Source: Nocardioides sp. cx-173
GTDB lineage: Bacteria; Actinomycetota; Actinomycetes; Propionibacteriales; Nocardioidaceae
Direction: 5' to 3'
DNA: 64,000 nucleotides
Assembly: GCF_021117365.1 (NCBI RefSeq)
Contig: NZ_CP088262.1
Coordinates: forward strand, 2,916,501 to 2,980,500
Shown here piece by piece: positions 7,923-52,133 of this stretch. The position numbers were made by a program, and so were the translations under genes. A model generated the notes under the pieces. It had not been told where the DNA came from. It ran no database searches and worked only from the letters and a program-made list of their open reading frames with translations. Position 1 is the stretch's first letter. Each line of letters opens with the position of its first letter.

Positions 7923-7959
7923 CCGCTGACCCGTCACAAACTTTCTGACGGGTCAGCGG
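7923..7959. repeat. 37-bp dispersed palindrome, copy 1
   Basis: Arms CCGCTGACCCGTCACAAA and TTTCTGACGGGTCAGCGG around one central C; one mismatch (C at 7937). It lies between the convergent alkaline phosphatase and AraC-family genes. The TGA stop of the AraC-family gene (7953-7955) is inside the right arm. Confidence 0.9.
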
Positions 7960-8879
7960 TCGAGCCAGCGCCGCCGGGCGTGGAGGTACGCCGCCGCGTC
8001 GGCGTACCCGAGCCGGGCCGCGACCTCGGCGACCGGCATCGTGGCGCGACCGGCGTGCAGGGCGTGGGCCAGCGACGAGCGGACCTCGTCGAGCAGCAGC
8101 CGGTAGCCGACCCCCTCCGCGGCCAGGCGCCGCCGGAACTGACGCTCGCTGAGAGCCAGGGCGGCCGCGACCTCCAGCATCGGCGCGCCCTCGGGCAGCC
8201 GCTGGGTGATGAGGACCCGGACGTCCTGGGCCAGCCCGGTGCGCGCGCGGCGCCCGTCGACGACGTCCTCGCACATGCGCGCGGCCAGCTCCAGCCGCTC
8301 CGGGCTGCGCTCCGGCAGCGGCCGGTCGAGCTGGTCGGCGGCGAACTCCAGCCGCGCCACCCCGTCGTCGGTGGTCAGCTCCGCCCCGACCCCGCCCGGC
8401 ACCAGTGAGTCCAGCACCGTGCGCACCGCGCTCGCGTCGCGCTCGACCAGGAAGCGCCGGACGTCGGCGGGCAGCTCGGCGCCGTCCAGCGTCACGACCA
8501 CCCGGTCCCCCTCCAGGGCGGCGCGCGGGATCGCGAACGCGTAGCTCAGGTCGATGAAGCGCAGCGCGACCACCATCGCGTCCAGGACGGTCCGGCTCGC
8601 CAGCAGCGCGAACCCGAACGCCCCGAAGGTGGCGGCCCGGTAGCGCTGGCCCACGTCGCATCCGACCTCGCCCAGGAGGCCGTGCAGCGTCCGCACCACC
8701 CGCAGCTCCTGCGCCGCGGTCACCTCGCCGCCGAGGTCCTCGGCGCGCAGTCCGGTCCCGAGCAGCACCCGGTCCGCGGCGACGCCGCGAGCCCCGGCGT
8801 ACTCCACCAGCAGCGCGACGCCCGCGGCGGAGCGCGGGAAGTCCCAGCCGGTGGCGGCCGGCGCGGGCAGGAGGGTCAT
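7953..8879 (-). CDS. AraC-family transcriptional regulator (arabinose-binding-like N-terminal domain)
   Basis: 308 residues from the ATG at 8879, supported by GATAAT 7 nt upstream. The N-terminal half (about 15-200) fits the PF12625-type domain found in OruR/VirS-like regulators (GQRYRAATFGAFGFALLASRTV). The C-terminal half carries the AraC double helix-turn-helix (MLEVAAALALSERQFRRRLAAEG and MPVAEVAARLGYADAAAYLHARRRW). The protein stops at RRWLDR, short of the usual final GxSPxxYR segment, because the reading frame runs into palindromic repeat copy 1. It is divergent from the flavin monooxygenase gene (70-bp gap) and is its likely regulator. Confidence 0.85.
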   Translation of the reverse strand: MTLLPAPAATGWDFPRSAAGVALLVEYAGARGVAADRVLLGTGLRAEDLGGEVTAAQELRVVRTLHGLLGEVGCDVGQRYRAATFGAFGFALLASRTVLDAMVVALRFIDLSYAFAIPRAALEGDRVVVTLDGAELPADVRRFLVERDASAVRTVLDSLVPGGVGAELTTDDGVARLEFAADQLDRPLPERSPERLELAARMCEDVVDGRRARTGLAQDVRVLITQRLPEGAPMLEVAAALALSERQFRRRLAAEGVGYRLLLDEVRSSLAHALHAGRATMPVAEVAARLGYADAAAYLHARRRWLDR

Positions 8880-8886
8880 GTCCGGA

Positions 8887-8892
8887 ATTATC
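8887..8892 (-). promoter_or_regulatory. -10 box for leaderless araC-type gene
   Basis: GATAAT on the minus strand (five of six bases of TATAAT), 7 nt before the ATG at 8879. Confidence 0.5.
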
Positions 8893-8936
8893 AACCGGGT
8901 CACCCTCGGCGCCTCCCCGGGCCCGGTCCGCCGCCC

Positions 8937-8942
8937 TACGTT
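8937..8942 (+). promoter_or_regulatory. -10 box for leaderless monooxygenase gene
   Basis: TACGTT, 7 nt before the ATG at 8950, back to back with the divergent AraC-family promoter. Confidence 0.5.
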
Positions 8943-8949
8943 CGGGGCC

Positions 8950-10410: not shown

Positions 10411-10419
10411 GCAGTGGGC

Positions 10420-16687: not shown

Positions 16688-17947
16688 TCAGCGCACGTGC
16701 CCCTCTCCGGTGACGACGTACTTGGTCGAGGTCATCTCCGGCAGGCCCATCGGACCGCGCGCATGCAGCTTCTGGGTGCTGATCCCGATCTCCGCGCCGA
16801 AGCCGAACTCGCCGCCGTCGGTGAAGCGGGTCGAGGCGTTGACCAGCACCACCGCTGCGTCCACGGTCGCGACGAAGCGCCGCGCCGCGCCCTGGTCCTC
16901 GGTGACGATCGCGTCGCTGTGCTGGCTGGAGAAGCGCCGGATGTGGGCCACCGCCGCGTCGAGATCCGGTACGACGGCGGCGGAGATGTCGAGCGAGAGG
17001 TACTCCCGCTCGTGGTCCTCGTCGGTCGCGGGCACGACGCCGTCCAGCGCCTGGAAAGCGCCGTCGCCGTGGACGGTCACGCCGGCCTCCTGCAGCGCCG
17101 CGGTCACCCGGGGCAGGAACTCGTCGGCGACGTCCGCGTGGACGAGCAGCGACTCGGCCGCGTTGCAGACGCTGGTGCGGTGGGTCTTGGAGTTGAGCAC
17201 GATCGCCAGCGCCTTGTCGAGGTCGGCCGCGCGGTCGACGTAGACGTGACAGTTGCCGACGCCGGTCTCGATGACCGGCACGGTCGACTCCTCGACCACG
17301 GAGCGGATGAGACCGGCTCCCCCACGCGGGATCAGCACGTCGACGTACCCGCGCGCCCGCATGAGCGCCTTGACGCTGTCCCGGGTGTCGCCCGGGACCA
17401 GCTGCATCGCGTCGGCGTCGAGGCCGGCCGCTGCGGCCGCGTCCCGCAGCACGGCCACGATCGCGGCGTTGCTTGAGCGCGCGCTGGAGCTGCCGCGCAG
17501 GAGCACGGCGTTGCCGGACTTCAGGCAGATGCCGGCCGCATCGGCGGTGACGTTGGGGCGGGCCTCGTAGATCATCCCGACCACGCCGAACGGCACCCGC
17601 ACCTGCCGCAGCTCCAGGCCGTTGGCCAACGTGCTCCCCCGCACCACCTCCCCGACCGGGTCGGGCAGGCCGGCCACGTCGCGCAGCCCCTGGGCCATCC
17701 CCGCGAGCCGATCGGGCGTCAGCCGCAGCCGGTCGACGACGTTGGCGGGCGTGCCGTCGGCCTCGGCTCGCGCCACGTCCTCGGCGTTGGCGGCCAGCAC
17801 CTCGGCCTCGCGGTCCAGCAGCGCGTCGGCCATCGCGTGCAGCGCCCGGTCCTTGTCGCCCCGCGTCGCCAGCGCCAGCCCGTGGCTCGCCGCACGGGCA
17901 CGCCGCGCCACCTCCAGCACGTCCTGCATCGGATCCTCTCCACTCAT
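16688..17947 (-). CDS. proA: Glutamate-5-semialdehyde dehydrogenase (gamma-glutamyl phosphate reductase)
   Basis: 419 residues, the usual ProA length. It reduces gamma-glutamyl phosphate to glutamate semialdehyde with NADPH, second step of proline synthesis. Aldehyde-dehydrogenase-fold landmarks: [42 protein letters not shown], and the catalytic Cys261 in TSVCNAAES, followed by [21 protein letters not shown] at the end. ATG 17947 has TAGGCT 6 nt upstream; an internal ATG at 17929 has a Shine-Dalgarno (GGAGAGG) and could be a second start. proB is not in the window. Confidence 0.95.
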
Positions 17948-17953
17948 GCCCCG

Positions 17954-17959
17954 AGCCTA
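17954..17959 (-). promoter_or_regulatory. -10 box for leaderless proA
   Basis: TAGGCT on the minus strand, 6 nt before the ATG at 17947. Confidence 0.5.
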
Positions 17960-18037
17960 TTCCCGCTCACCACTCCTCAGCGCCCCGTCCCACACCACAC
18001 CGCTCCCCATCGACCCGTCACCAACTCACGCAAATGA

Positions 18038-18074
18038 CCGCTGACCCGTCAGAAAGTTTCTGACGGGTCAGCGG
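18038..18074. repeat. 37-bp dispersed palindrome, copy 2, with flanking half-copies
   Basis: Perfect: arms CCGCTGACCCGTCAGAAA and TTTCTGACGGGTCAGCGG around a central G. On its left a half-copy with the variant centre, GACCCGTCACCAACT, lies at 18012-18026; on its right GGGACGGGTCAG at 18091-18102 is a degenerate half-copy and contains the etfA stop codon (18099-18101). The composite covers about 18012-18102, between etfA and proA. Confidence 0.92.
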
Positions 18075-18098
18075 TCGTGGTGATCAGCTGGGGACGGG

Positions 18099-19064
18099 TC
18101 AGCCCTTGCGCTGGTTGATCTGCTCGGTGGCGGCGGGGAGGACCGCGTGCAGGTCGCCCACGACGCCGAAGTCGACCAGCTCGAAGATCGGGGCCTCGTC
18201 GTCCTTGTTGACCGCGACGATGGTCTTCGACGTCTGCATGCCGGCCCGGTGCTGGATGGCGCCGGAGATGCCGTTGGCGACGTAGAGCTGCGGCGAGACC
18301 GTCTTGCCGGTCTGGCCCACCTGGAAGGTGTGCGGCATCCAGCCGGAGTCGACGGCGGCGCGCGAGGCGCCGACCGCCGCGCCGAGGGCGTCGGCGAGGC
18401 CCTCGATCGGCTCGAAGTTGCCGCCGGTGCCACGGCCGCCCGAGACCACGATGGCGGCCTCGGTGAGCTCGGGGCGACCCGAGGCCTTGCGCGGCTGCTG
18501 CGCCACGATCTGGGCGGTCTTGGCGGCGTCGGAGATGGTCGCGGCGAACTCCTCGACGGTCCCGGCGCCGGCCTCCTCGACCGGGGAGGTCGAGTTGGGC
18601 TTGACCGTGATGATCGGGGTGCCCTTGGTGACCTTGGCCTTGACCGTGTAGTTGCCCGCGAAGACCGACTGGGTCGTGACCGGGGCTCCCCCATCGGCGG
18701 CCTCCACGTCGACGGCGTCGGTGATCAGGCCGGACCCGATCTTGATCGCCAGACGCGCGGCGACCTCCTTGCCCTCGTAGCCGGACACGAAGAGCACCGC
18801 CGCGGGCGAGCTCTTCTCGACCAGCTGCTGCAGGGCCTCGGCCTTGGGCGCCACGAGGTAGCCCTTGATCTCCGCGTCGTCGACGACGTAGATCTTCTCG
18901 GCGCCGAACGCCTTGAGCCTCTCGGCGACCTCGCCGACCTTGTCGGAGCCGCCGAAGAACACCGCGGCGGGCTCGCCGAGCCGCTTGGCCAGGGCCAGCA
19001 GCTCGAGCGTGGGCTTGCGGATTGCGCCGTCGACGTGGTCGACGACAACCAGAACCTCAGACAT
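18099..19064 (-). CDS. etfA: Electron transfer flavoprotein alpha subunit
   Basis: 321 residues. The N-terminal domain I (about 1-190) is followed by the C-terminal FAD domain with [36 protein letters not shown] and the family signature region [19 protein letters not shown]. With EtfB it carries electrons from acyl-CoA dehydrogenases to the respiratory quinone pool via ETF dehydrogenase. Downstream of etfB with a 15-bp gap, one operon. Its stop codon lies in a half-copy of the palindromic repeat. Confidence 0.96.
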
Positions 19065-19079
19065 GTTCGTTCCCCGTCC

Positions 19080-19886
19080 TCAGATGAACTTCTTGGCGGC
19101 GAGGAAGTCGGTCAGCGCGGTGGCGCCCGACCCGTCCTCGTCCTTGACGATCTCGCCGGCCGTGCGCGGCGGGCGCTCGGTGGTGTCCTCGACCTCGGTC
19201 CAGGCGACCGCGAGGCCGACCTCGCCGGAGTCGACGCCCAGGTCGCCGAGCGACCAGGTGTCCAGCGGCTTCTTCTTGGCCGCCATGATCCCCTTGAACG
19301 ACGGGTAGCGGGCCTCGCCGGTCTGGTCGGTCACCGAGAGCACGAGCGGCATGGTGCCGCCGATGACCTCGGTGGCGGTGTCGCCGTCGCGCTTGATGCG
19401 GACCTGGTCGCCCTGCGTCTCGATGACGGAGGCGAACGTGACCTGGGGCAGGTTGAGGCGCTCGGCCAGCATGGCCGGGACCACGCTGCCCGAGGCGTCC
19501 GTGGACGCCATGCCACAGACCACGAGGTCGGCCCCGCCCTTGTCCTGGCCGATCTTCTCGATCGCCTTCGCGAGGACGAGCGAGGTGGCGACGTAGTCGG
19601 AGCCGGCGATGGCCTCGTCCGTGACGTGGACGCCCTCGTCGGCGCCCATCTGCAGCGCCTTGCGCACCGCGTCGACCGCCTTCTCGGGACCGATGGTGAG
19701 GGCGATCACCTTGGTCTCCTCCGGGCTGTCGGACTTCTCCTTGATCTGGAGGGCCTGCTCGACGGCGTACTCGTCGAGCTCGGAGAGCAGGCCGTCGACG
19801 CCGACGCGGTCAACGGTGTTGTCCGACTCGAACCGGCGGTCGCCGGTCGCGTCGGGGACGTGCTTCACACAGACGACAATGTTCAT
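19080..19886 (-). CDS. etfB: Electron transfer flavoprotein beta subunit
   Basis: 268 residues, complete. Begins MNIVVCVKHVPDA, with the AMP-binding and recognition-loop regions (CGMASTDASGSVVPAMLAE; VLSVTDQTGEARYPSFKGIMAAKKKPL, the etfB signature). EtfB binds AMP and docks with dehydrogenases. First gene of the etfBA pair. No Shine-Dalgarno or TANNNT box is at the usual distance before ATG 19886; the AGGAGGGG sequence is too far upstream (about 20 nt). Confidence 0.96.
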   Translation of the reverse strand: MNIVVCVKHVPDATGDRRFESDNTVDRVGVDGLLSELDEYAVEQALQIKEKSDSPEETKVIALTIGPEKAVDAVRKALQMGADEGVHVTDEAIAGSDYVATSLVLAKAIEKIGQDKGGADLVVCGMASTDASGSVVPAMLAERLNLPQVTFASVIETQGDQVRIKRDGDTATEVIGGTMPLVLSVTDQTGEARYPSFKGIMAAKKKPLDTWSLGDLGVDSGEVGLAVAWTEVEDTTERPPRTAGEIVKDEDGSGATALTDFLAAKKFI

Positions 19887-20073
19887 GGTGGTGTGGCCTG
19901 GACGGCCCCTCCTGATGCACTCGTGAGGTCAAGGGAATGGCCAATGACTGCCATGACTGCCATGACTGCCGGCGTGGGCAGGCTACCGCCGAGGCACCGG
20001 CGACGAAACACGGGTCGGCGTTCGACTGCGTCACACCGTGTGCTGGGTCACTCGGGCGAGGGGGCGGCGACGG
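19887..20073. other. Intergenic region upstream of etfB with a 9-bp triplicate repeat
   Basis: 187 bp without a gene. ATGACTGCC is repeated three times in tandem at 19944-19970 (GGCAGTCAT on the etfB sense strand), about 60-85 bp upstream of etfB. A protein-binding array or slippage product are both possible. Confidence 0.5.
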
Positions 20074-20394
20074 TCACGGACGGACGAGCCGGTCCAGGAT
20101 CCGTCCCACGACGAGGTAGACGACCGCCCCGATGCCGTAGCTGAACAGCGCTGTGGTCTTGGCGCCGTTCTCCCCGCCGAACCGCTTGATCGGGTTGTCG
20201 AGGTCGAAGACGCCGAGGTCCACACCGTCCGCGAGGTCGAGCACGAGCTCGACCAGCGGGTTCGTGCGCTCCGCGTCGACGGCGATCAGCAGGGCCGCGA
20301 TGGCCAGCACCGACGCGCACACCGCACAGAGCAGCCAGAGCACCCGGGCGAGGGTCACCCGGACCGCCGTGCCACTCGATCTGACGTCTGCCAC
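20074..20394 (-). CDS. Small two-helix membrane protein of unknown function
   Basis: 106 residues: N-terminal helix (about 13-38, LWLLCAVCASVLAIAALLI), a central acidic/polar part (NPLVELVLDLADGVDLGVFDLDNP) and a C-terminal helix (YGIGAVVYLVVGRIL). The pattern NPLV-x-D-AD-x-DL-x-P followed by a final helix recurs in actinobacterial membrane proteins of about 100 residues without known function. GTG start at 20394, 4 bp after the enoyl-CoA hydratase stop, so translationally coupled to it. Confidence 0.65.
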   Translation of the reverse strand: MADVRSSGTAVRVTLARVLWLLCAVCASVLAIAALLIAVDAERTNPLVELVLDLADGVDLGVFDLDNPIKRFGGENGAKTTALFSYGIGAVVYLVVGRILDRLVRP

Positions 20395-20398
20395 GTCG

Positions 20399-21178
20399 CT
20401 ACCGCCCCTCGAACTCAGCCTTGCCCGGACCGTTCGTGACGAAGGATCGCATACCGGTCGTGCGGTCCTCGGTCCCGAAGAGCGCGGCGAACTGGACGCG
20501 CTCCAGCTCGAGACCGGTCACCAGGTCCACCTCCAGCCCCCGGTCGATGCTCTCCTTCGCGGCGCGTACGGCGAGCGACGCCGCGCCGCGGAACTGCCGC
20601 GCCCAGGCGACCGCCTCGTCGTAGACGGAGGCGGCCGGCACCAGCCGGTCGACCAGGCCGATGGCCAGCGCCTCGTCGGCCTTGACGAGCCGGCCGGTGA
20701 AGATGATGTCCTTCGCGGTGCTCGGGCCGACCAGCCGGCTCAGCCGCTGGGTGCCGCCGGCGCCGGGGATGATGCCGAGCAGCACCTCCGGCTGACCCAG
20801 CGTCGCGTCGTCGGCGGCGATCCGGAAGTCGGCGGCCAGCGCGAGCTCGCAGCCGCCGCCCAGCGCGTAGCCGTTGATGGCCGCGACGACCGGCTTGGGG
20901 ATGTCGGCCACGGCGTTCACCGCCGACTGGATGGAGCCGGAGATCCGGGCCATGTCGCTGGAGGTGAGGTCGACCATCTCCTTGACGTCGTTGCCGGCCG
21001 CGAACACCCGCTCGCCGCCGTAGACGACCACGGCCTTGACGTCGTCGCGCTCCGCCGCCTCCGCGGCCGCGGCCCGCAGCTCGGCCTGCACCTGGATGCT
21101 GATCGCGTTCATCTTCGGCCGGTCGAGGCGGATCGTGCCCACGCCATCGGTGACCTCGAGCCTCACGAACTCTGACAT
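20399..21178 (-). CDS. Enoyl-CoA hydratase/isomerase
   Basis: 259 residues, crotonase fold. The oxyanion-hole segment GNDVKEM (after ERVFAAG) and the helix GYALGGGCELALAADFRIA are typical; catalytic Glu residues lie in the GGGCELALAADFRIA and QPEVLLGIIPGAGGTQRL blocks. It hydrates 2-enoyl-CoA to 3-hydroxyacyl-CoA in beta-oxidation. Start ATG 21178 is preceded by GGGAG; the longer upstream frame is not used. Divergent from glgX. Upstream of etfBA on the same strand, consistent with fatty-acid oxidation. Confidence 0.9.
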   Translation of the reverse strand: MSEFVRLEVTDGVGTIRLDRPKMNAISIQVQAELRAAAAEAAERDDVKAVVVYGGERVFAAGNDVKEMVDLTSSDMARISGSIQSAVNAVADIPKPVVAAINGYALGGGCELALAADFRIAADDATLGQPEVLLGIIPGAGGTQRLSRLVGPSTAKDIIFTGRLVKADEALAIGLVDRLVPAASVYDEAVAWARQFRGAASLAVRAAKESIDRGLEVDLVTGLELERVQFAALFGTEDRTTGMRSFVTNGPGKAEFEGR

Positions 21179-21267
21179 CTGGCAACTCCCTGCTGGTCGG
21201 TGAACGTGGCTTGAGCCTGCCACTGCCGGCGGGCCCTCGGGGAGCCGGTGCCGAAGGATAGGCAACA

Positions 21268-23430
<2,163 letters not shown>

Positions 23431-23439
23431 TCCGGCCGA

Positions 23440-26034
23440 TCAGGCCATGGCGACGACGCCGAGCTCGGCGTCGGAGACCAGCAGGTCGTGCCTCGGGATG
23501 ACCCGGACGGTGTAGCCGAACGAGCCGCTGTGGTCGAGCTCGACCTCCCCGTCGAAGCGGTAGCGGCCGCCGTCGTAGGTCTCGGCCACGGTCAGCGGCT
23601 CGATGACGGTCTCGACGAGCTCGTCCTCGGCGTTGGTCTTGCCGTGGACGAGCTGGACGGCGACGTCCTCGGGGGACAGCTCGCCGAGGCCGACGAAGGC
23701 GCGGACATGCAGGTGCGCGCCGACCTCGGGCGCGTCGCCCACGCCGCTGCTCTCGACGTGCTCGACGTGGACCTCGGGCCAGTGGGCCCGCACCCGCTGC
23801 TTCCAGGCGGCCAGGCTGCGCGCCCCCTCGTAGTCGGAGTTGAGCAGGCGTGCGTTAGTCGCGGCCGGGGTGTAGAGCGACCTGGTGTAGTCGCGCACCA
23901 TGCGGGTGGCCAGCACCTTGGGGCCCAGCGACTTCAGCGTGTGGCGCAGCATCTCGACCCAGCGGCCGGGCACGCCCTCCTCGTCGAGGTCGTAGAAGCG
24001 CGGGGCGACCTCGTTCTCGATCAGGTCGTAGAGCGCGGCCGCCTCGAGGTCGTCGCGGCGGTCGGGGTCGTCCAGCCCGTCGGCCGACGGGATCGCCCAG
24101 CCGTTCTCGCCGTCGTACCACTCGTCCCACCAACCGTCGAGGATCGACAGGTTGAGCCCGCCGTTGAGGGCGGCCTTCATGCCGGAGGTCCCGCAGGCCT
24201 CGTAAGGGCGCAGCGGGTTGTTGAGCCACACGTCGCAGCCGGGGTAGAGCGGCTGGGCCATCGCGATGTCGTAGTTGGGCAGGAACACGATCCGGTGGCG
24301 GACCTCCGGGTCGTCGGCGAAGCGCACCAGCTCCTGGATGAGCCTCTTGCCACCGTCGTCGGCGGGGTGCGACTTGCCGGCGATCACCAGCTGGATCGGC
24401 CGCTCGGGGTCGAGCAGCAGGCTCTTGAGCCGGGCCGGGTCGCGCAGCATCAGGGTCAGCCGCTTGTACGACGGCACCCGGCGTGCGAACCCGATCGTCA
24501 GCACGTCCGGGTCCAGGGCGTGGTCGATCCAGGCGAGCTCGGCCGCGGCCGAGCCGCGCCGCTCCCACGAGCGGCGCAGGCGCGTACGGGCGTCCTTCAC
24601 GAGGCGCTCGCGCAGGGTGCGCTTGGTGGCCCACACCTGGGCCGAGGGCACCTTGTCGACGGCGTTCCAGAACGCCTCGGTGTCGTCGGACTCGGCATCG
24701 GCGCCCTGGGACTCCGCGAGCTCGATGATCTCGCGGGCCACCCAGGTCGGGGCGTGCACGCCGTTGGTGATCGAGCCGATCGGCACCTCGGCCTCGTCGA
24801 AGGCCGGCCACAGGCCGTTGAACATGCCGCGGCTGACCTCACCGTGCAGGAGCGAGACGCCGTTGGCGCGCTGCGCCAGGCGGAAGCCCATGACGGCCAT
24901 GTTGAAGACCGAGGGGTCGCCGCCGTCGTAGTCCTCGGTCCCGAGCGCGAGCACCTTCTCGATCGGGACGCCGGGGGTGGCCCCGGTCTCCCCGAAGTAC
25001 TGCTCGACCAAGGTGCGGGGGAAGCGGTCGATGCCCGCGGGCACCGGCGTGTGCGTCGTGAAGACGGTGGAGGCCCGGCCGACCTCGAGTGCCGTCGGGA
25101 AGTCCAAACCCGGGCCGGTCTCGTCGACGGTGAGCTCGCGGATCCGCTCGATGCCGAGGAAGCCGGCGTGGCCCTCGTTGGTGTGGAACACCTCGGGCGC
25201 GGGGTGGCCGGTGATCCGGCAGTAGGCACGCAGGGCACGGACGCCGCCCACGCCGAGGAGCATCTCCTGGCGCAGCCGGTGCTCGCTGTTGCCGCCGTAG
25301 AGGCGGTCGGTGACGTCGACGTAGTGCTCGGGGTTGCCCTCGACGTTGGTGTCCAGCATCAGCAGCGGCACCCGTCCGACGCTGGCGACCCAGATCCGCG
25401 CGACGAGGTCGGGGCCGCCCGGCATCGCGATCGAGACGGTGGCTCGCGAGCCGTCGGGCTCGCGCAGCAGGGAGATCGGCAGGCCGTCGGGGTCCAGGAC
25501 CGGGTAGGTCTCCTGCTGCCAGCCCTCGCGCGACAGCGACTGCGTGAAGTAGCCGTGACGGTAGAGCAGGCCCACACCGATGATCGGTACGCCGAGGTCG
25601 CTGGCCGCCTTGAGGTGGTCACCGGCGAGGATGCCCAGACCGCCGGAGTACTGCGGCAGCGCCGCGGTGATGCCGAACTCCGGGGAGAAGTAGCCGATGG
25701 CCGCGGGGCCGCCGGCGTCGGTGGCCGAGCGCGCCGCGGCCCGCTGGTACCAGCGCTCGCCGGTCAGGTAGGAGTCCAGGTCGGCGGCGGCGACTCGCAG
25801 CCGCTCCAGGAACCCCTCGTCCCCGGCCAGCGCCTCGAGCCGGCCACGGCCGACCGCGCCGAGGAGGGTGACCGGGTCGTACCCGGTGGACTCCCACAGC
25901 TCCGGGTCGACCTCCTGGAACACGTCCTGGGTCTCGGGGTGCCACGACCACCTCAGGTTGAGGGCGAGCACCCCCAGCGCCTCCAGGGCCGGCGGGAGGA
26001 CGGGACGGACCGTGAATCGTCGAATGGCGCGCAC
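23440..26034 (-). CDS. glgP: Alpha-glucan (glycogen/maltodextrin) phosphorylase
   Basis: 864 residues of the GT35-related DUF3417 branch found in actinobacteria and thermophiles. Start VRAIRRFTVRPVLPP matches the normal beginning of this branch; the GTG at 26034 has TAGCGT exactly 7 nt upstream, so longer frames are rejected. Landmarks: ALNLRWSWH, GYFSPEFGI, YSGGLGILAGDHLK, HTNEGHAGF, THTPVPAGIDRF, NGVHAPTW, and the pyridoxal-phosphate region GTSGMKAALNGGLNLSILDGWW with its Lys. It releases glucose-1-phosphate from alpha-1,4-glucan. Divergent from glgE. Confidence 0.95.
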   Translation of the reverse strand: MRAIRRFTVRPVLPPALEALGVLALNLRWSWHPETQDVFQEVDPELWESTGYDPVTLLGAVGRGRLEALAGDEGFLERLRVAAADLDSYLTGERWYQRAAARSATDAGGPAAIGYFSPEFGITAALPQYSGGLGILAGDHLKAASDLGVPIIGVGLLYRHGYFTQSLSREGWQQETYPVLDPDGLPISLLREPDGSRATVSIAMPGGPDLVARIWVASVGRVPLLMLDTNVEGNPEHYVDVTDRLYGGNSEHRLRQEMLLGVGGVRALRAYCRITGHPAPEVFHTNEGHAGFLGIERIRELTVDETGPGLDFPTALEVGRASTVFTTHTPVPAGIDRFPRTLVEQYFGETGATPGVPIEKVLALGTEDYDGGDPSVFNMAVMGFRLAQRANGVSLLHGEVSRGMFNGLWPAFDEAEVPIGSITNGVHAPTWVAREIIELAESQGADAESDDTEAFWNAVDKVPSAQVWATKRTLRERLVKDARTRLRRSWERRGSAAAELAWIDHALDPDVLTIGFARRVPSYKRLTLMLRDPARLKSLLLDPERPIQLVIAGKSHPADDGGKRLIQELVRFADDPEVRHRIVFLPNYDIAMAQPLYPGCDVWLNNPLRPYEACGTSGMKAALNGGLNLSILDGWWDEWYDGENGWAIPSADGLDDPDRRDDLEAAALYDLIENEVAPRFYDLDEEGVPGRWVEMLRHTLKSLGPKVLATRMVRDYTRSLYTPAATNARLLNSDYEGARSLAAWKQRVRAHWPEVHVEHVESSGVGDAPEVGAHLHVRAFVGLGELSPEDVAVQLVHGKTNAEDELVETVIEPLTVAETYDGGRYRFDGEVELDHSGSFGYTVRVIPRHDLLVSDAELGVVAMA

Positions 26035-26387
26035 CCCGAAGACGCTACCGCCCATTTGTGGAACGATCCAAAGATTCATCCAAAGCGGGCCGCCGTCCCA
26101 GGTGACGCTGCCCACACACCGCTCCTGGTGAGCACGCGTGGCCGTCGGACGTCGCGATCCGCTGCGGGCGGCGCGGTGCCGAGCATAACCGCCCTCCCCC
26201 GGCCCCGGTTTCGAGACGGCCGCTTCAGCACCGGGTGCCGGGGTAACGGAGAGCGTTCCGGTACGGGGTCACCGGTGCGCGCTCGCGAGCGCCGCTGCTG
26301 ACCCACGACGGTGGGAGGTGGCTCCCGCGGGACCATGGACCGGCCCGCGGCTTGCACGCGGGCGACGCAACCGGGAAGGGTGGGGAC
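26035..26387. other. 353-bp divergent promoter region between glgP and glgE
   Basis: No gene seen. The glgP -10 (TAGCGT on the minus strand) is at 26042-26047. A perfect 14-bp palindrome GCGCTCGCGAGCGC lies at 26279-26292 and a GGGAG-GTGG-CTCCC hairpin at 26313-26326; either could be an operator or leader structure for glgE. The glgE ribosome binding site region is AAGGGTGGGG at about 26376-26385. Confidence 0.5.
26042..26047 (-). promoter_or_regulatory. -10 box for leaderless glgP
   Basis: TAGCGT on the minus strand, 7 nt before the GTG at 26034. Confidence 0.55.
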
Positions 26388-33779: not shown

Positions 33780-33782
33780 GGT
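33777..33782 (+). promoter_or_regulatory. -10 box for leaderless NUDIX gene, overlapping the glgB stop
   Basis: TAGGGT, 7 nt before the GTG at 33790; the TAG is the glgB stop codon. Confidence 0.5.
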
Positions 33783-33789
33783 TGGGCGC

Positions 33790-34545
33790 GTGAGCGAGCA
33801 CCCCCGCACCCAGACCGTCGCCGACGGCGTCGCCCGCGTCGTCTGGACGCCGTCGGACGGGGACTGGGCCGCGACCCTGGACGCCGTACGGCGTGAGGTC
33901 GAGGCCGCGCTCGTGGCGGGCCACAGCCGGGTCGAGATGCTGGTCGCCCTGGAGGACGAGACCGGCCAGCGGGTGGCCACCTGGTCCGGACTGCGCCGTG
34001 AGGGTGTGCGCCGCGGGGTGGACGGCGACCTGGTCGTCTACGCGCGCCTCACCTCCGACGCCTCCGCCGAGGAGCCGGGCGGGTTCCGAGCGCTGCTCAA
34101 CTCCTTCCTCCCGCGCAAGCGCGCGATCAGCCAGATGCTGATCCGCGACCCCGACGCGCGGGTGCTGCTGTGCCAGCTGACCTACAAGCAGGACTGGGAC
34201 CTGCCCGGCGGCGTGGTCGAGGTCGGCGAGTCCCCGCAGCTGGCGGTGGCGCGCGAGGTCGAGGAGGAGCTCGGTCTCTCCCTCGAGGCCGGGCCGCTCG
34301 TGCTCACCGACTGGCTGCCCCCCTGGGGCGGCTGGGACGACGCGCTGTGCCTGGTCTTCGACGGCGGCGTCCACGACGCCTCGATCACCGACGCCATCGT
34401 CATGCAGGCCCGCGAGATCCGGGCGGCGGAGTTCCTGACCCTCGAGCAGGCCCGCGAGCGCTGCGCCGACTTCACCGCCCGCCGCCTCGAGTCCGCCCTC
34501 GCCAACCTCGGCGGCGGCCCCGCCTACACCGAGTCCGGCCGCTGA
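33790..34545 (+). CDS. NUDIX hydrolase
   Basis: 251 residues. A long N-terminal region (about 1-105), rich in Arg and Val, precedes a NUDIX domain with the box GGVVEVGESPQLAVAREVEEELGL (G-x5-E-x7-REVxEELG intact). Nucleoside-diphosphate substrate is unknown. The C-terminus YTESGR ends with a TGA inside a half-copy of the palindromic repeat (CTGACCCGTC). It converges with eamA, overlapping its 3' end by 22 bp. Confidence 0.85.
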   Translation: MSEHPRTQTVADGVARVVWTPSDGDWAATLDAVRREVEAALVAGHSRVEMLVALEDETGQRVATWSGLRREGVRRGVDGDLVVYARLTSDASAEEPGGFRALLNSFLPRKRAISQMLIRDPDARVLLCQLTYKQDWDLPGGVVEVGESPQLAVAREVEEELGLSLEAGPLVLTDWLPPWGGWDDALCLVFDGGVHDASITDAIVMQAREIRAAEFLTLEQARERCADFTARRLESALANLGGGPAYTESGR

Positions 34546-35516
34546 CCCGTCACCAACTGCTCGCCCCCACCGCTGACCCGGCAGAAACTTTCTGACGGGT
34601 CAGCGGTGGGGTCGGCGAGTTTCTGACGGGTCGGTGTCGGGTGGGGCTGGTGTGACGTCGGGCGGCGGGGAGGCCGCAGCGCCACCAGGACGCCGAGCAC
34701 GAGCAGCAGGCCGCCAGTCGCCTCGGCCGCGTTGGGCCGCTGGTCGAGCAGCAGCCAGGCCGAGGCCATCGCGACGACCGGAGCGAGCAGCACCCAGGGC
34801 ACCACGGACGCCGAGCGATTGCGGCTCAGCAGGGTGTTGAAGATGCCGTAGCCCACCAGCGAGGCCAGCCCGGCCGTGTACAGCGTGGCGACCAGCGCCT
34901 CCCAGCCGAACGCCGCCATCCCTTCGGCGAGCGCCTCGGGGCCGTCGAGCAGCAGGCTGAGCGCCACCAGCGGGACCGGTACGACGAGTGCCGACCAGAC
35001 CGTCAGGGACAGACCGCCGCTGACGCCCGAGGCGCGGGACAGGACGTTGCCGACCCCCCAGGAGAGCGCCGCGAGCAGGCAGAGTGCCAGCGCCAGCAGC
35101 GGGACCTCCCCGCCGCGACCCACGGCGACGACGACCAGCCCGACCGACCCGAGCGCCACGCCGGCCGCCTGCGCGGCCGTGGGCAGCTCGCGCAGCACGC
35201 CGGTGGCGATGAGCACGGTGAAGATGACCTGCGCCTGCAGCACCAGCGCCGCCAGCCCCGGCGGCATCCCCGCCGCCATCCCGACGTACAGGAAGCCGAA
35301 CTGGCCCAGGGACATGAACACGCCGATCAGCGCCACCACCCGCCAGGGCGCCCGCGGACGGCCGACCAGGAACACCGCCGGCAGCACCACCAGCACGAAC
35401 CGCGCCGCCAGGAACAGCAGCGGCGGCACCTCGCCCATCCCCCAGTCGATCACCACGAAGTTGAAGCCCCAGACGGTGGCGACCAGGGCGGCGAGAATAC
35501 AGTCGCGTCGGTTCAC
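34524..35516 (-). CDS. eamA: EamA-type exporter (O-acetylserine/cysteine export family)
   Basis: 330 residues, about ten transmembrane helices of the drug/metabolite transporter superfamily. It closely resembles Escherichia coli EamA in its opening (VWGFNFVVIDWGM, PPLLFLAARFVLV) and in the AGMPPGLAALVLQAQVIFT motif. It should export a small metabolite such as O-acetylserine or cysteine. GTG 35516. After the natural end at about residue 295 (LRPPRRPTSHQ) the frame continues through palindromic copy 3 (ADPSESF) and overlaps the NUDIX gene end, giving a tail of about 35 atypical residues. It is divergent from a LysR gene. Confidence 0.82.
   Translation of the reverse strand: MNRRDCILAALVATVWGFNFVVIDWGMGEVPPLLFLAARFVLVVLPAVFLVGRPRAPWRVVALIGVFMSLGQFGFLYVGMAAGMPPGLAALVLQAQVIFTVLIATGVLRELPTAAQAAGVALGSVGLVVVAVGRGGEVPLLALALCLLAALSWGVGNVLSRASGVSGGLSLTVWSALVVPVPLVALSLLLDGPEALAEGMAAFGWEALVATLYTAGLASLVGYGIFNTLLSRNRSASVVPWVLLAPVVAMASAWLLLDQRPNAAEATGGLLLVLGVLVALRPPRRPTSHQPHPTPTRQKLADPTADPSESFCRVSGGGEQLVTGQRPDSV
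34570..34606. repeat. 37-bp dispersed palindrome, copy 3, with half-copies on both sides
   Basis: Arms CCGCTGACCCGGCAGAAA and TTTCTGACGGGTCAGCGG around a central C; one mismatch (G in CCGGCAG). Left half-copy CCGCTGACCCGTCACCAACT at 34539-34558 and right half-copy AGTTTCTGACGGGTCGG at 34618-34634, so the composite is about 96 bp, between the convergent NUDIX and eamA genes. Confidence 0.92.
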
Positions 35517-35545
35517 GGACCCATGCTGACGGCTGCAACCCGGTA

Positions 35546-35565
35546 GCACCAGCGAATCCTGATGC
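35546..35565. promoter_or_regulatory. Candidate LysR operator in the eamA-lysR divergent region
   Basis: GCACCAG-N6-CTGATGC is a near-perfect inverted repeat (6 of 7 positions) placed 30 bp from eamA and 24 bp from the LysR start, between the two divergent promoters. Direct CGGTAGCA repeats flank it at about 35541 and 35575. Confidence 0.45.
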
Positions 35566-35576
35566 CCCTTTCTCGG

Positions 35577-35582
35577 TAGCAT
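35577..35582 (+). promoter_or_regulatory. -10 box for leaderless LysR gene
   Basis: TAGCAT, 6 nt before the ATG at 35589. Confidence 0.5.
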
Positions 35583-35588
35583 CGCTGC

Positions 35589-36494
35589 ATGATCGATCTG
35601 GCCGCCCTCACGTCCCTGCGTGCCGTCGACACCCACGGCTCCGTGGTGGCGGCCGCGGACGCGCTCGGCTTCACGCCCAGCGCGGTGTCGCAGCAGGTGA
35701 AGCGGCTGGAGCGCCAGACCGGCGTACCCCTGCTCGAGCGGGTGGGCCGCGGCGTGATGCTCACCCGCCACGGCCGGCACCTCGTGGACGCCGGGGCACG
35801 GGTGCTGGGCGACCTCGAGGAGATCGAGTCCGGGCTGCACCGCCAGGCCGAGGCGGTGGCGGGCCACCTGCGCATCGTCGCCTTCTCCACCGCCATGCGC
35901 GGCCTGGTGGCGCCCGCCGTACGCCGCCTGCTCGACGCCCATCCCGACCTGACCCTCCAGCTCTCCGAGCGCGAGCCGTGGGACACCGTCGACCTGGTCG
36001 CCTCCGGCCAGTGCGAGGTGGGCGTGGTGCACCGCTGGGGCGACGTGGCGCTGGCCATCCCCGGCCATCTGGTCGCGGCCTCGGTGGCCCAGGACGTCGC
36101 CGACGTGGTCGTCCACCGCGACCACCCGCTGGCCGGGCGCGGCCGCGTCACGCCTCGCGACCTGGTCGACGAGGGCTGGGTCGCCACCCCGGAGGGCACG
36201 ATCTGCCGCGAGTGGCTGACCCGCATGTACGACGGCACCGGGCGACTGCCGCGCATCGCCCACCAGTCGATGGAGTTCGACAGCCACCTGGCGATGGTCC
36301 GCGCCGGCCTGGGCATCGCGCTCGTGCCCCGGCTCGGTCGGCAGCCGCTCGGCGACGACGTCGTCGCGCTCCCGGCGGCCGATCCGGTCCCCACCCGCGA
36401 GGTCCTGGCCCTCCACCGCCGCAGCATGACCGCCTCCCCCGCGGTCGCCGCCGTCCTCGCCGGTCTCTGCGCCGACCCGTCAGAAAGTTTCTGA
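35589..36494 (+). CDS. LysR-family transcriptional regulator
   Basis: 301 residues. N-terminal winged helix-turn-helix (about 1-60, SVVAAADALGFTPSAVSQQVKRLE) and the LysR substrate-binding domain (about 87-290). It is divergent from eamA, 72 bp between starts, so it likely regulates the exporter in response to its substrate. ATG 35589 has TAGCAT 6 nt upstream. The last residues DPSESF come from palindromic copy 4; the reading frame stops at the TGA in the palindrome and overlaps the next gene end by 15 bp. Confidence 0.9.
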   Translation: MIDLAALTSLRAVDTHGSVVAAADALGFTPSAVSQQVKRLERQTGVPLLERVGRGVMLTRHGRHLVDAGARVLGDLEEIESGLHRQAEAVAGHLRIVAFSTAMRGLVAPAVRRLLDAHPDLTLQLSEREPWDTVDLVASGQCEVGVVHRWGDVALAIPGHLVAASVAQDVADVVVHRDHPLAGRGRVTPRDLVDEGWVATPEGTICREWLTRMYDGTGRLPRIAHQSMEFDSHLAMVRAGLGIALVPRLGRQPLGDDVVALPAADPVPTREVLALHRRSMTASPAVAAVLAGLCADPSESF

Positions 36495-36505
36495 CGGGTC
36501 AGCGG
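36469..36505. repeat. 37-bp dispersed palindrome, copy 4 (3' coding overlap)
   Basis: The core GACCCGTCAGAAA and TTTCTGACGGGTC around a central G (36474-36500) is perfect; the right outer AGCGG is kept but the left outer CCGCT is replaced by GCGCC, where the LysR gene is coding. It supplies the C-terminal DPSESF of the LysR protein and DPSETF of the EI24 protein, with each gene stopped by a TGA inside it. Confidence 0.92.
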
Positions 36506-37253
36506 TGGGAGCGGACTCTCCAGCGGCCACGAGGTCGCGGGCAGCGACCAGGTCGCGGGCCAGCATGGTGGCGCCCACGACGGCGGCCGGCATGACCACG
36601 ACCGCGCCGAGGGGCACCAGGAACAGCGCCTGGGCGGTGACGCCGAAGCCGAACACCTCGCTTCGCGCGCCCTTGGCGAGCTCGCTGCGCTGCGCCGCAT
36701 CGAGGCCGCGCGCCTCGAGCGGGCGGGCCAGGAGGTCACCGGCGAGCATCCAGCCGGACACGGCGATGCCCAGCACGCCGCCGATCACGGTGCCGAACAG
36801 CGGCACCGTCCCGGCGACCACGACGACCACGCTCGCGGCCACGCCGACGCCCATGAGCACGACGGCGTCGCGGGTGGCGCGCCAGGCGCTCAGGTCGCCG
36901 TCGGGCACGCTGCCGCCCAGCATCAGCTCGGCCTCGCGCCAGATCTTGGCGTAGAACGGCTCGCCCACAGCCAGCGTCAACCCCACGAAGGTGGAGGCGG
37001 CCAGCGCCAGCGACCCGACCACGAGCGCGATGGCCACGCTCACCTGCACGGGCACCCGCACCGAGTCAGTGGAGTCTTCGACGAACGGCGTCAGCCACCG
37101 CACCAGGTCCGTCAGCTGGAGCAGCAGGGTCACGAGGGCCGCGACCAGCACCAGCGCGACCAGCAGGGCGGGCACCATCCCGAGCAGCATCAGCCCGGGC
37201 CGCGTGCGCCACAGCACGAACCCCCGGAAGAGGTAGGGCGACCCAGGTATCAC
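36480..37253 (-). CDS. EI24-domain (CysZ-like) membrane protein
   Basis: 257 residues with about five to six hydrophobic segments. The EI24/CysZ family pattern is visible: N-terminal SPYLFRGFVLWRTRPGLMLLG, a large hydrophobic middle part and GEPFYAKIWREAE. CysZ transports sulfate; in actinobacteria the substrate is unknown. GTG 37253, 11 bp after the thioredoxin-like gene, so co-transcribed. The end carries two tandem ARDLVAA repeats and then PTADPSETF from palindromic copy 4. Confidence 0.78.
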   Translation of the reverse strand: MIPGSPYLFRGFVLWRTRPGLMLLGMVPALLVALVLVAALVTLLLQLTDLVRWLTPFVEDSTDSVRVPVQVSVAIALVVGSLALAASTFVGLTLAVGEPFYAKIWREAELMLGGSVPDGDLSAWRATRDAVVLMGVGVAASVVVVVAGTVPLFGTVIGGVLGIAVSGWMLAGDLLARPLEARGLDAAQRSELAKGARSEVFGFGVTAQALFLVPLGAVVVMPAAVVGATMLARDLVAARDLVAAGESAPTADPSETF

Positions 37254-50165: not shown

Positions 50166-50672
50166 ATGTGGCCCATGACCGCACCGACCGACTCGCCCGC
50201 CGATCTGCCCGCCGATCTGCCCGCCGATCTGCCCGCCGATCTGCCCCGCCACCTGTTCACCGCCATCGACCACGTCGGCATCGCCGTCCCCGACCTCGAT
50301 GTCGCGATCGCGTTCTACCGCGACACCTTCGGCATGGAGCTGGCCCACGAGGAGGTCAACGAGGAGCAGGGCGTCCGCGAGGCGATGATCGCGGTCGGCG
50401 ACTCCGGGTCCTGCATCCAGCTCCTGGCGCCGCTGAACGAGGACTCCACGATCGCGAAGTTCCTCGACCGCTCCGGGCCGGGCGTGCAGCAGATGGCCTA
50501 CCGGGTCACCGACGTCGAGGCCGTCAGCGCGATCCTGCGCGAGCGCGGTGTCCGCCTGCTCTACGACGCCCCGAGGCGCGGGACGGCCGACTCGCGGATC
50601 AACTTCATCCACCCCAAGGACGCCGGCGGCGTGCTCGTCGAGCTCGTCCAGCCCGCGGCCTCCTCGCACTGA
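50166..50672 (+). CDS. mce: Methylmalonyl-CoA epimerase with repeated N-terminal extension
   Basis: 168 residues. A 29-residue N-terminal extension with PADL repeated four times (12-bp repeat at 50195-50242) precedes a normal epimerase domain (about 31-162): FTAIDHVGIAVPDLD with the metal His, ELAHEEVNEEQGVREAMI, QLLAPLNEDSTIAKFL, GVQQMAYRV with the second His region, and GVLVELVQ with the metal Glu. It interconverts (R)- and (S)-methylmalonyl-CoA, also ethylmalonyl-CoA in the Ccr pathway. Two starts are possible (50166 and 50175). The ccr gene follows 58 bp downstream. Confidence 0.92.
   Translation: MWPMTAPTDSPADLPADLPADLPADLPRHLFTAIDHVGIAVPDLDVAIAFYRDTFGMELAHEEVNEEQGVREAMIAVGDSGSCIQLLAPLNEDSTIAKFLDRSGPGVQQMAYRVTDVEAVSAILRERGVRLLYDAPRRGTADSRINFIHPKDAGGVLVELVQPAASSH
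50195..50242 (+). repeat. Four 12-bp tandem repeats inside mce
   Basis: GCCCGCCGATCT is repeated four times exactly, encoding PADL units between the start and the enzyme domain. In-frame copy-number change is possible without loss of function. Confidence 0.9.
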
Positions 50673-50676
50673 GGCG

Positions 50677-50690
50677 TTACCCGCCGGTAA
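50677..50690. promoter_or_regulatory. Candidate ccr operator TTACC-N4-GGTAA
   Basis: Perfect palindrome TTACCCGCCGGTAA, overlapping a TAATAT -10-like box (50688-50693) 40 bp before the ccr start. A related sequence stands upstream of the double 3-hydroxyacyl-CoA dehydrogenase gene (61550-61565). The form fits a TetR-type fatty-acid or acyl-CoA regulator; the protein is unknown. Confidence 0.45.
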
Positions 50691-50730
50691 TATCCGCAGC
50701 ACTTACGACCCGGACCATCAGGAGCCTGAC

Positions 50731-52083
50731 GTGCAGCACATCCTCGACGCCATCCTCGCCGCCTCCGAGAGTCCCGGGAGCGTCGCCCCGGAGGACTTCG
50801 CGAGCCTCTCCCTGCCCGAGTCCTACCGCGCGGTGACCGTCCGCAAGGACGAGGTGGACATGTTCGAGGGGCTGGAGACCCGCGACAAGGACCCGCGCAA
50901 GTCGCTGCACCTCGACGACGTGCCGCTGCCCGAGCTCGGCCCGGGCGAGGCGTACGTCGCCGTGATGGCCTCCGCGATCAACTACAACACCGTGTGGACC
51001 TCGATCTTCGAGCCGGTCTCCACGTTCGGCTTCCTGGAGCGCTACGGGCGTCAGTCGGAGCTCACCAAGCGCCACGACCTGCCCTACCACGTGGTGGGCT
51101 CCGACCTGGCCGGCGTCGTCCTCGCGACCGGCCCCGGCGTCACGAAGTGGAAGCCCGGCACCGAGGTCGTCGCGCACTGCCTCTCGGTGGAGCTCGAGGA
51201 CCCCGACGGCCACGACGACACGATGCTCGACCCGCAGCAGCGGATCTGGGGCTTCGAGACCAACTTCGGCGGTCTCGCCGAGATCGCGCTGGTCAAGTCC
51301 AACCAGCTGATGCCCAAGCCGGCCCACCTGACCTGGGAGGAGGCCGCCTCCCCCGGGCTGGTCAACTCCACGGCGTACCGCCAGCTGGTCTCCAAGAACG
51401 GCGGCAACATGAAGCAGGGCGACAACGTCCTGGTGTGGGGTGCCTCGGGCGGCCTCGGCGGCTTCGCCACGCAGTACGCCCTCAACGGCGGCGCGACCCC
51501 GGTCTGCGTGGTCTCCAACGAGGAGAAGGCCGCGATCGCCCGGAGCATGGGCGCGGAGCTGATCATCAACCGCGCCGAGGAGGGCTACCGGTTCTGGAAG
51601 GACGAGCACACCCAGGACCCGAAGGAGTGGAAGCGCTTCGGCGCCAAGATCCGCGAGCTCACCGGTGGCGAGGACATCGACATCGTCTTCGAGCACCCCG
51701 GCCGCGAGACCTTCGGTGCCAGCGTCTACGTGACCCGCAAGGGCGGCATCATCACCACGTGCGCCTCGACCTCGGGCTACATGCACGAGTACGACAACCG
51801 CTACCTGTGGATGAACCTCAAGCGGATCATCTCCTCCCACTTCGCCAACTACCGCGAGTCGTGGGAGGCCAACCGCCTCATCGCCAAGGGCATGATCCAC
51901 CCCACCCTCTCGCGTACCTATGGCCTGGAGGACGTCGGCCAGGCCGCGCTCGACGTCCACAAGAACGCCCACCAGGGCAAGGTCGGCGTCCTGTGCCTCA
52001 GCCCCGAGGAGGGTCTCGGCGTCCGCGACCACGAGCTCCGCGAGCAGCACCTCACCGCGATCAACCGCTTCCGCGGCGTCTGA
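50731..52083 (+). CDS. ccr: Crotonyl-CoA carboxylase/reductase
   Basis: 450 residues, medium-chain dehydrogenase fold. It carboxylates crotonyl-CoA reductively to (2S)-ethylmalonyl-CoA with NADPH and CO2. The CO2-binding residues known in the Kitasatospora enzyme are kept: Asn in SAINYNTVW, Phe-Glu in WGFETNFGG, His in VFEHPGRETFG; the cofactor loop is WGASGGLGG. Long insertion ELEDPDGHDDTMLDPQQ is typical of Ccr. GTG 50731 is preceded by AGGAG. Downstream is palindromic copy 5. Together with mce, thiolase and meaB this is an ethylmalonyl-CoA pathway block. Confidence 0.96.
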   Translation: MQHILDAILAASESPGSVAPEDFASLSLPESYRAVTVRKDEVDMFEGLETRDKDPRKSLHLDDVPLPELGPGEAYVAVMASAINYNTVWTSIFEPVSTFGFLERYGRQSELTKRHDLPYHVVGSDLAGVVLATGPGVTKWKPGTEVVAHCLSVELEDPDGHDDTMLDPQQRIWGFETNFGGLAEIALVKSNQLMPKPAHLTWEEAASPGLVNSTAYRQLVSKNGGNMKQGDNVLVWGASGGLGGFATQYALNGGATPVCVVSNEEKAAIARSMGAELIINRAEEGYRFWKDEHTQDPKEWKRFGAKIRELTGGEDIDIVFEHPGRETFGASVYVTRKGGIITTCASTSGYMHEYDNRYLWMNLKRIISSHFANYRESWEANRLIAKGMIHPTLSRTYGLEDVGQAALDVHKNAHQGKVGVLCLSPEEGLGVRDHELREQHLTAINRFRGV

Positions 52084-52096
52084 GCCGCCCGTCCTC

Positions 52097-52133
52097 CCGC
52101 TGACCCGTCAGAAACTTTCTGACGGGTCAGCGG
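52097..52133. repeat. 37-bp dispersed palindrome, copy 5, with right half-copy
   Basis: Perfect arms CCGCTGACCCGTCAGAAA and TTTCTGACGGGTCAGCGG around a central C, starting 14 bp after the ccr stop. A variant half-copy AGTTGGTGACGGGTCA follows at 52145-52160. Confidence 0.92.

Follow-up and report, generated by a model that had tools for sequence, protein, structure and literature searches.

A half-site palindrome family dispersed at gene 3′ ends in Nocardioides, and its candidate nuclease-type partner gene

The window analyzed here, a 64-kb stretch (positions 2916501–2980500) of the 4.446-Mb single-contig genome of Nocardioides sp. cx-173 (referred to as G000 hereafter), carries five copies of a 37-bp palindrome. 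An earlier note, made from the letters alone, had pointed them out, and all five were found at the coordinates it gave, with 1, 0, 1, 2, and 0 mismatches to the 37-mer in order of position; 100 dinucleotide-preserving shuffles of the window provided 0 matches. The gene arrangement claimed for them was also borne out: three copies lie at convergent and two at tandem junctions, and no copy is farther than 26 bp from a stop codon, some overlapping one. The names of the window genes are from Pfam, and the gene calls from a codon-usage caller. An Rfam search of the window returned only a tRNA.

The building block of the palindrome is a half-site of 9–10 bp, TGACCCGTC, and two facing half-sites form the palindrome, or hairpin. 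Copy 1 (7923..7959, plus strand) consists of two facing half-sites only (><, when half-sites are written as arrows) and separates the convergent alkaline phosphatase gene (plus strand, 6224–7912) and AraC-type gene (minus strand, 7953–8879); the stop codon of the latter is a TGA of the palindrome itself. Copy 2 (18038..18074), whose centre-C strand is the minus strand, is located at the 3′ end of etfA (minus strand, 18099–19064). It is accompanied by two outer half-sites, each 31 bp from the matching arm: GACCCGTC at 18012..18019 on the plus strand, and one at 18093..18100 on the minus strand, which reads GACGGGTC on the plus strand. Copy 3 (34570..34606, plus strand) follows a plus-strand NUDIX gene that stops at 34545, and also has outer half-sites at 31 bp on its left (GACCCGTC, 34544..34551, plus strand) and right (34625..34632, minus strand; GACGGGTC on the plus strand). 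Its single mismatch destroys one minus-strand TGA of the palindrome, and the minus-strand EamA-type frame (34524–35516) reads through. Inside copy 4 (36469..36505, minus strand, 2 mismatches), TGA codons end both the LysR-type gene (plus strand, ending at 36494) and the EI24-type gene (minus strand, ending at 36480). Copy 5 (52097..52133, plus strand) begins 13 bp past the stop of an alcohol-dehydrogenase-type gene (plus strand, 50731–52083) and has one outer half-site at 31 bp (52152..52159, minus strand; GACGGGTC on the plus strand). Therefore, the 37-bp palindrome core is real, but the full element is larger than the note had proposed, by an extra half-site about 31 bp beyond the matching arm.

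In the whole genome, 73 places match the 37-mer with at most 3 mismatches (35 of them perfectly) and 74 match its 31-bp core, while the reversed pattern gave 0 matches; the copies elsewhere in the genome, which the note had wished to be counted, are not few. Their gaps along the chromosome look random (coefficient of variation, 0.97), and no periodicity was seen. Of these copies, 71 were read in context (70 from one listing, and one variant). The centre base sets the orientation: with a centre C, a third half-site, AGTTNNTGACGGGTC, usually occurs 11 nt past the palindrome, which generates GACGGGTC repeats at 31 bp. Extra half-sites at 31 bp accompany 53 of the 71 copies, and the arrangements found were ><< (36 copies), >< (18), >><< (13), and >>< (4). 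In the centre-C orientation, and with one mismatch and a shift of at most 2 tolerated, 49 copies have the outer half-site at about 31 bp on the right and 17 have it on the left. By an alternative rule, the counts are 50 on the right (48 at exactly 31 bp) and 18 on the left (16 at exactly 31 bp); this rule detects a tail in 50 of the 71 right flanks and in 17 of 1065 background windows. In the 48 right-tailed copies without an indel, most arm positions are 98–100% conserved (the lowest, 81%), the 11-nt spacer is 35–83% conserved, and the AGTT after the spacer 96–100%; the outer GACGGGTC served to select the tails, and its own 100% conservation is therefore no test.

The genome contains 179 half-sites TGACCCGTCANNAA, of which 170 are inside the 71 elements and 9 outside. 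This count bears on the idea that the half-site is a DNA uptake sequence (DUS) occurring in species-specific "dialects," with inverted pairs that function as terminators, like those of Neisseria. The species-specific variants shown below and the termination by DUS pairs in Neisseria, as described in PMC2397512, would agree with this idea, but solitary half-sites are nearly absent, and we consider it highly improbable.

A clear preference was seen in the position of the copies relative to genes. The 71 copies comprise 33 at convergent, 34 at tandem (18 + 16), and 2 at divergent junctions, and 2 wholly within a called gene; several further copies overlap the last bases of a gene. The reference was a set of 312 junctions from the loci fetched, 62 of them convergent and 51 divergent; with element junctions subtracted, the convergent excess (p = 9e-10) and the divergent deficit (p = 2e-4) are both marked. 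Random placing, including inside genes, had been named in the note as what would speak against an organized 3′-end element; with only 2 of 71 within a called gene, such an element is favoured. The distance to the stop codon is also preferred: 24 right-hand genes end exactly 24 bp past the palindrome, so that the outer half-site opens with their TGA, and the mirror arrangement is seen for 6 left-hand genes. For some genes the palindrome's own TGA is the stop codon. TGACCC was found at the stop codon in 45 of 99 gene ends adjoining a copy, as compared with 26 of 513 others. In two other genomes of the genus, G097 and G068, 20 loci provided 13 convergent, 7 tandem, and 0 divergent junctions. Copies were also found between rpoA and rplQ and after rplQ (L045, genome positions 970114 and 970804; L114), and this place is conserved in N. 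szechwanensis (G009).

The distribution was examined in 118 genomes of the genus using the loose pattern TGACCCG-N8..20-CGGGTCA. Most genomes are at, or slightly above, the control level. The expanded ones are G029 (99 matches), G000 (71), G009 (67), G068 (57), G097 (45), G078 (24), G008 and G043 (10 each), and G057 and G065 (9 each). Among 245 genomes of the order, the genus included, none outside the genus exceeded 7 matches, and the exact 29-mer was found in no other GTDB genome. Among the expanded genomes, G000, G009, G029, G068, G078, and G097 were compared by their copies; the inner sequences are particular to each genome (one or more per genome) and palindromic with few exceptions. Tandem clusters of palindromes occur in G068 and G097.

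The comparison with the 59 copies of related centre type in G009 is informative. For 32 of the 71 G000 sites, an orthologous partner exists among the G009 copies (31 distinct partners; flanks mostly 80–93% identical); site 1619523 was first assigned the partner of its neighbour, and its own was found separately. At all 32 shared sites the sequence type differs, and the copy lists of the two genomes have no 27-mer in common. The orthologous spacers are not more alike than those of other pairs (0.58 vs 0.57; 12 pairs). Partnerless sites number 39 in G000 and 28 in G009, and 14 and 10 of them, respectively, could be placed on both flanks in the other species; these 24 places hold other hairpins, decayed or older family copies, or unrelated sequence. 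Four more distant genomes were compared as well. Of the 44 genes there that end at a palindrome, 8 have the site in common with G000 (at 6 sites, including one that adjoins the P0001 gene described below), whereas among the remaining genes of these loci 1 of 76 does so (p = 0.001). Since the sites are orthologous and the sequences differ, the places are partly inherited, and the sequence types have been replaced genome-wide. The 16 pattern matches of Nocardioides sp. 503 are for the most part mutually different family hairpins (two are alike, and a few are chance-like); judged by its sequences, this genome looks as if homogenization had stopped. Separately, G009 (L140–L158) has other repeated hairpins, AGTACTCGCTGCGCTCGTACT and GAGTGACTTCGTCACTC, some of them where G000 carries a TGACCC palindrome.

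Between copies 1618450 and 1619523 of the G000 genome lies a gene (1618591–1619490) for a protein of 300 residues, P0001. Its best homologs in G009, G029, G043, G057, G068, and G097 are likewise located between family palindromes, making seven genomes with G000. The framing palindromes are of the dispersed type of the own genome in G000, G009, G068, and G097, and are more variable in G029. The seven palindrome-framed genes belong to one clade, which comprises nine rows out of the 31 of the first batch (support, 86/86). Except for that of G043, these genes stand beside both an L,D-transpeptidase gene and a cytochrome b gene, and the same neighbourhood was found in G089, G041, and G024, which have few palindromes. 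The neighbours in G000 are the L,D-transpeptidase (YkuD-type) and cytochrome b genes; neither is a toxin gene, and no AbiEii-type toxin gene is adjacent. Residues 8–203 have a predicted fold like that of AbiEi/Rv2827c, with which the PADLOC profiles agree, and residues 206–314 have the predicted fold of I-Bth0305I/Vsr, including the catalytic fold, and carry the conserved acidic and histidine residues. A sequence search of the PDB provided no credible relative (best E 0.11, with unrelated names), and another search provided none. Homologs number 1–10 per genome in 115 of the 118 genomes.

An arrangement of this kind recalls the repetitive extragenic palindromic (REP) sequences and bacterial interspersed mosaic elements (BIMEs), and the note had suggested, as one of three readings, that the family was spread by a REP-associated tyrosine transposase (RAYT). 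Extragenic 3′-end palindromes, the tandem clusters in G068 and G097, and a gene between two copies are all in line with classical elements moved by such an enzyme. However, the transposase domain PF01797 was found in 0 of the 118 genomes, G000 included, while 5 of 14 control genomes were positive, which excludes a RAYT at the Pfam level. Nor is either tetranucleotide a constant part: within 12 nt of either palindrome end, GTAG occurs in 1 of the 71 G000 copies and 4 of the 59 G009 copies, and CGTC in 16 and 10 of them, respectively. Classical REP/RAYT elements are thus hardly credible here. The suggested REP-like or miniature inverted-repeat transposable element (MITE)-like origin is supported, but the linked gene is of an AbiEi/homing-endonuclease type. 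A reverse transcriptase was also considered as the mobilizer and rejected: PF00078 was not found in G000 or G009, and is present in 32 of the 118 genomes, including G068, G078, and G097.

Many genes of the family are also framed by repeat arrays. We scored 51 family genes (the first 30 matches listed, and 21 more with gaps) for a 9-mer that occurs at least twice upstream and, inverted, at least twice downstream. Such arrays frame 31 of the 51 family genes, as compared with 1 of 581 control genes, which is P0001 itself, and 0 of 220 further controls. Inverted words of at least 14 common to both flanks were found in 38 of the 51 family genes and 10 of the 581 controls; as for words of 34–35 bp common to both flanks, the G000 and G009 control genes provided only rplQ, P0001, and one gene in L128. 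The unit spacings are mostly 21–22, 31–34, and 42–44 bp, that is, two to four helical turns, although the spacings within one array are not independent. The G041 gene is preceded by four TGACCCGTCGCTT-type units spaced at 31 bp, which recur in inverted orientation downstream, and in G089 the framing array has a 21-bp unit. Motifs with at least one hit on each side were GACCCG in 21 genes, CGAGTCGG in 16, GACCGGG in 4, and none in 10; a 6-mer may be there by chance. The CGAGTCGG motif is also a dispersed hairpin in G009, and occupies the etfA slot of N. lianchengensis. Repeats of CCGAGTCGG were observed to flank nuclease-gene paralogs (L274, L281, L283–L285, L288, L290, L295, and L311) and to form dispersed hairpins, including that at the etfA end of L184.

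Arrays in palindrome-poor genomes cannot stem from the abundance of palindromes. For the palindromes themselves, framing by chance through the abundance of sites is disfavoured by an argument rather than a test: inheritance of single sites between distant species is far from complete (8/44), yet in each of the seven genomes a palindrome lies on either side of the gene.

The arrays also allow a reading in which the half-sites are operators. The AbiEi-like protein would then be a regulator or chromosome organizer, the arrays autoregulatory, and the dispersed palindromes its binding sites (and also terminators), their sequences following a changed binding preference rather than copying. As described in PMC7319586, AbiEi and Rv2827c each occupy several inverted repeats that precede the gene encoding them; in addition, the above spacings suit proteins on one face of the DNA, and the arms are conserved and the spacers variable, as in binding sites. 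On the other hand, inverted arrays are also present downstream of the gene, and the protein carries a predicted nuclease-type domain. Moreover, most copies of one genome are near-identical, and those of G000 differ from those of N. szechwanensis by several changes in both arms at all 32 shared sites, which is hard to reach by independent point mutation. We regard this operator reading as unlikely.

T-runs past the hairpin are found mainly on sides towards which a gene is transcribed through it, and many copies therefore probably act as intrinsic terminators, often in both directions. Seven window stretches show strong hairpin folding (z from −5.2 to −9.6), and a stable hairpin shortly after the stop codon, as expected for an intrinsic terminator, was found. 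TTT within 12 nt past the hairpin occurs in 22 of 51 (G000) and 25 of 47 (G009) cases where a gene reads in from that side, and otherwise in 2 of 18 and 0 of 11; pooled, these are 47 of 98 and 2 of 29 (p = 3e-5), two G000 copies and one G009 copy being excluded for an ambiguous junction. The statement in the note that there is no T-run is accordingly only partly right. Its bidirectional-terminator reading gains support from the position and the direction-dependent T-runs. A simple consensus terminator scan detected nothing at the three palindromes within 17500–37000, and its hits elsewhere were at the chance level.

The 3′ end of etfA, beside copy 18038, was readable in 78 of 80 named relatives, and an inverted repeat by a loose rule is present in 69 of them. 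Arms of at least 12 were found in 58 of the 78; 57 of these begin 4–54 nt past the stop, and the sequences are 57 different ones. The TGACCC-family pattern occurs there in 3 of 78 (Nocardioides sp. 503, N. szechwanensis, and one metagenome-assembled genome), with a one-base variant in N. lijunqiniae. Therefore, the palindrome family sits in an ordinary terminator slot at this site. It was also observed that Nocardioides sp. 1609 has two etfA genes (L179 and L206), 94% and 84% identical to that of the window.

The direction-dependent T-runs, the 3′-end position, and the unrelated hairpins in the etfA slot of most relatives would equally suit a simpler explanation, namely that the palindromes are ordinary intrinsic terminators kept alike through homologous recombination or selection alone, with the nearby nuclease gene being incidental. 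Against it, family palindromes frame the gene in 7 genomes, and phased arrays exist in palindrome-poor genomes. Furthermore, in stretches not picked for dispersed copies (the window included), other hairpins were found at 10 of 54 convergent junctions, so that termination alone does not demand the family sequence. This explanation appears to be improbable, even more so than that by operators.

Taken together, the reading we favour, and hold to be fairly probable, is that of a REP/MITE-like family of half-sites that has settled as probable terminators and has a nuclease-type, non-RAYT partner. In the proposed mechanism, the AbiEi-like part of the protein would bind the half-sites, the nuclease part would cut the DNA there, and repair or copying from other copies would homogenize all of them. 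Copying or in-place conversion would keep the copies of one genome alike and swap them together. The hairpins may have been retained at 3′ ends for terminating transcription, from both sides between convergent genes. A gene-less fusion of the upstream and downstream arrays would yield the observed arrangements (>><<, ><<, ><), and the order could be either way, with the gene entering a palindrome or the palindrome derived from a framed gene. More tentatively, and with somewhat less than an even chance in our estimation, these elements may represent a new class of bacterial selfish DNA, in which an AbiEi-like protein of the homing-endonuclease type recognizes the helically phased iterons framing its own gene and spreads gene-less palindromes by cutting and converting resident copies, the hairpins having been adopted by the host as terminators. 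Such cutting and conversion would explain why copies change together at inherited sites, and paralogous genes with other iterons (CCGAGTCGG and GACCGGGC) would drive parallel families.

Several observations weigh against the favoured reading. As for the partner gene, 20 of the 51 family genes have no array by the 9-mer rule, and 3 of the 10 genomes with at least 9 pattern matches have no palindrome-framed gene among the loci read: G078 (24), whose best match to P0001 has an E of 1.7e-5, G008 (10), and G065 (9). The top protein columns tracking the repeat class are scattered, and no column of the N-terminal winged helix exceeds z of 4, in an analysis uncorrected for shared ancestry. The seven genomes do not count as independent cases, since sites are partly inherited, and with this conservation of place within the genus, the framing of the gene could be partly inherited rather than functional. 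As for mobility, neither a target-site duplication nor a clean empty site was seen among the 24 placeable sites, where sequence is replaced and not inserted. As for termination, roughly one half of the copies with a gene reading into them lack the T-run; T-runs on the other side of the hairpin are rare (9 of 92 vs 0 of 35, p = 0.06), and those in G097 and G068 show the same trend, which is not significant (5 of 33 vs 0 of 7). Any hairpin with arms of at least 12 is present at only 12 of the 54 convergent junctions, and hence is not required at every such junction. The rpoA and rplQ genes are normally co-transcribed, and a full terminator between them would be odd. Finally, one G009 copy is within a reading frame (L108, C10:351292); this is an older-type palindrome lying in frame, and the reading frame is otherwise conserved in G000.

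Other repeats were also noticed in G000. A second perfect palindrome, GCAGGGTTATCAGCAGATGCTGATAACCCTGC, occurs at a gene 3′ end at 1668–1699 of the window, with two related copies (L159, 7962 and 8873) in the 663 kb read. A further hairpin family, GAGTTTCACCGGGTGCCCGGTGAAACTC, has 4 copies in 663 kb (L164, 1726; L170, 2294 and 2360; L173, 12844). A 21-bp tandem repeat is located within an open reading frame region at 62957–63229 of the window.

Searches of the open-licence PMC literature, which covers few subscription papers, listed no report that connects repeats of this kind with Nocardioides or with genes of the AbiEi/DUF559/Vsr type, and the word Actinobacteria is absent from the main text of PMC3733652, PMC2817692, and PMC6006769. 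Until now, the only type of enzyme associated with REP repeats has been the Y1 RAYTs, and the palindrome families without an enzyme are unexplained. The present family would be a REP-like one in Actinobacteria with clear iterons and a candidate partner of a different enzyme class. The joint replacement of the terminator-like hairpins of one genome bears on how repeated regulatory hairpins evolve, and a possible role is suggested for a protein family that is large and so far unexplained, and that currently goes by the name of "AbiEi antitoxin" or "very-short-patch-repair endonuclease."

Among known systems, the REP/BIME/REPIN sequences with RAYT (TnpA-REP), as described in PMC2817692 and PMC3733652, share with the Nocardioides family the short extragenic 3′-end palindromes, the species-specific types, the clusters, and the gene framed by two repeats; here a partner gene lies between two repeat copies in 7 genomes, and encodes an unrelated protein. 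The Nocardioides palindromes differ in having neither a Y1/HUH transposase nor a constant GTAG/CGTC tag, and in their half-sites at helical spacing and their linked protein, AbiEi-like with a homing-endonuclease/Vsr-type domain. The CGTC-tagged REPs, including the neisserial dRS3, are likewise palindromes without a dedicated transposase, but their stems are 8–9 bp with a terminal CGTC (PMC3733652), whereas the Nocardioides stem is about 17 bp with CGTC internal. As regards MITEs, which have an autonomous relative with the same termini, the gene framed by the same half-sites in inverted orientation would be a candidate for it. Tn7-like transposon ends differ in that neither neighbour of P0001 in G000 is a transposase gene, no genome-wide search for DDE transposases having been made. 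Bidirectional intrinsic (Rho-independent) terminators resemble the family in the hairpin just past the stop and in the T-run, if any, on the exit side, but here the sequence is repeated about 70 times, the T-run is weak, and half-sites extend beyond the hairpin. With the AbiEi/Rv2827c antitoxins of type IV toxin-antitoxin systems, residues 8–203 of P0001 share the predicted fold and the PADLOC profiles, although P0001 adjoins no toxin gene and carries an extra nuclease domain. Lastly, residues 206–314 are predicted to fold like the homing endonuclease I-Bth0305I and the Vsr endonuclease, and in P0001 this nuclease domain is joined to an AbiEi-like part.

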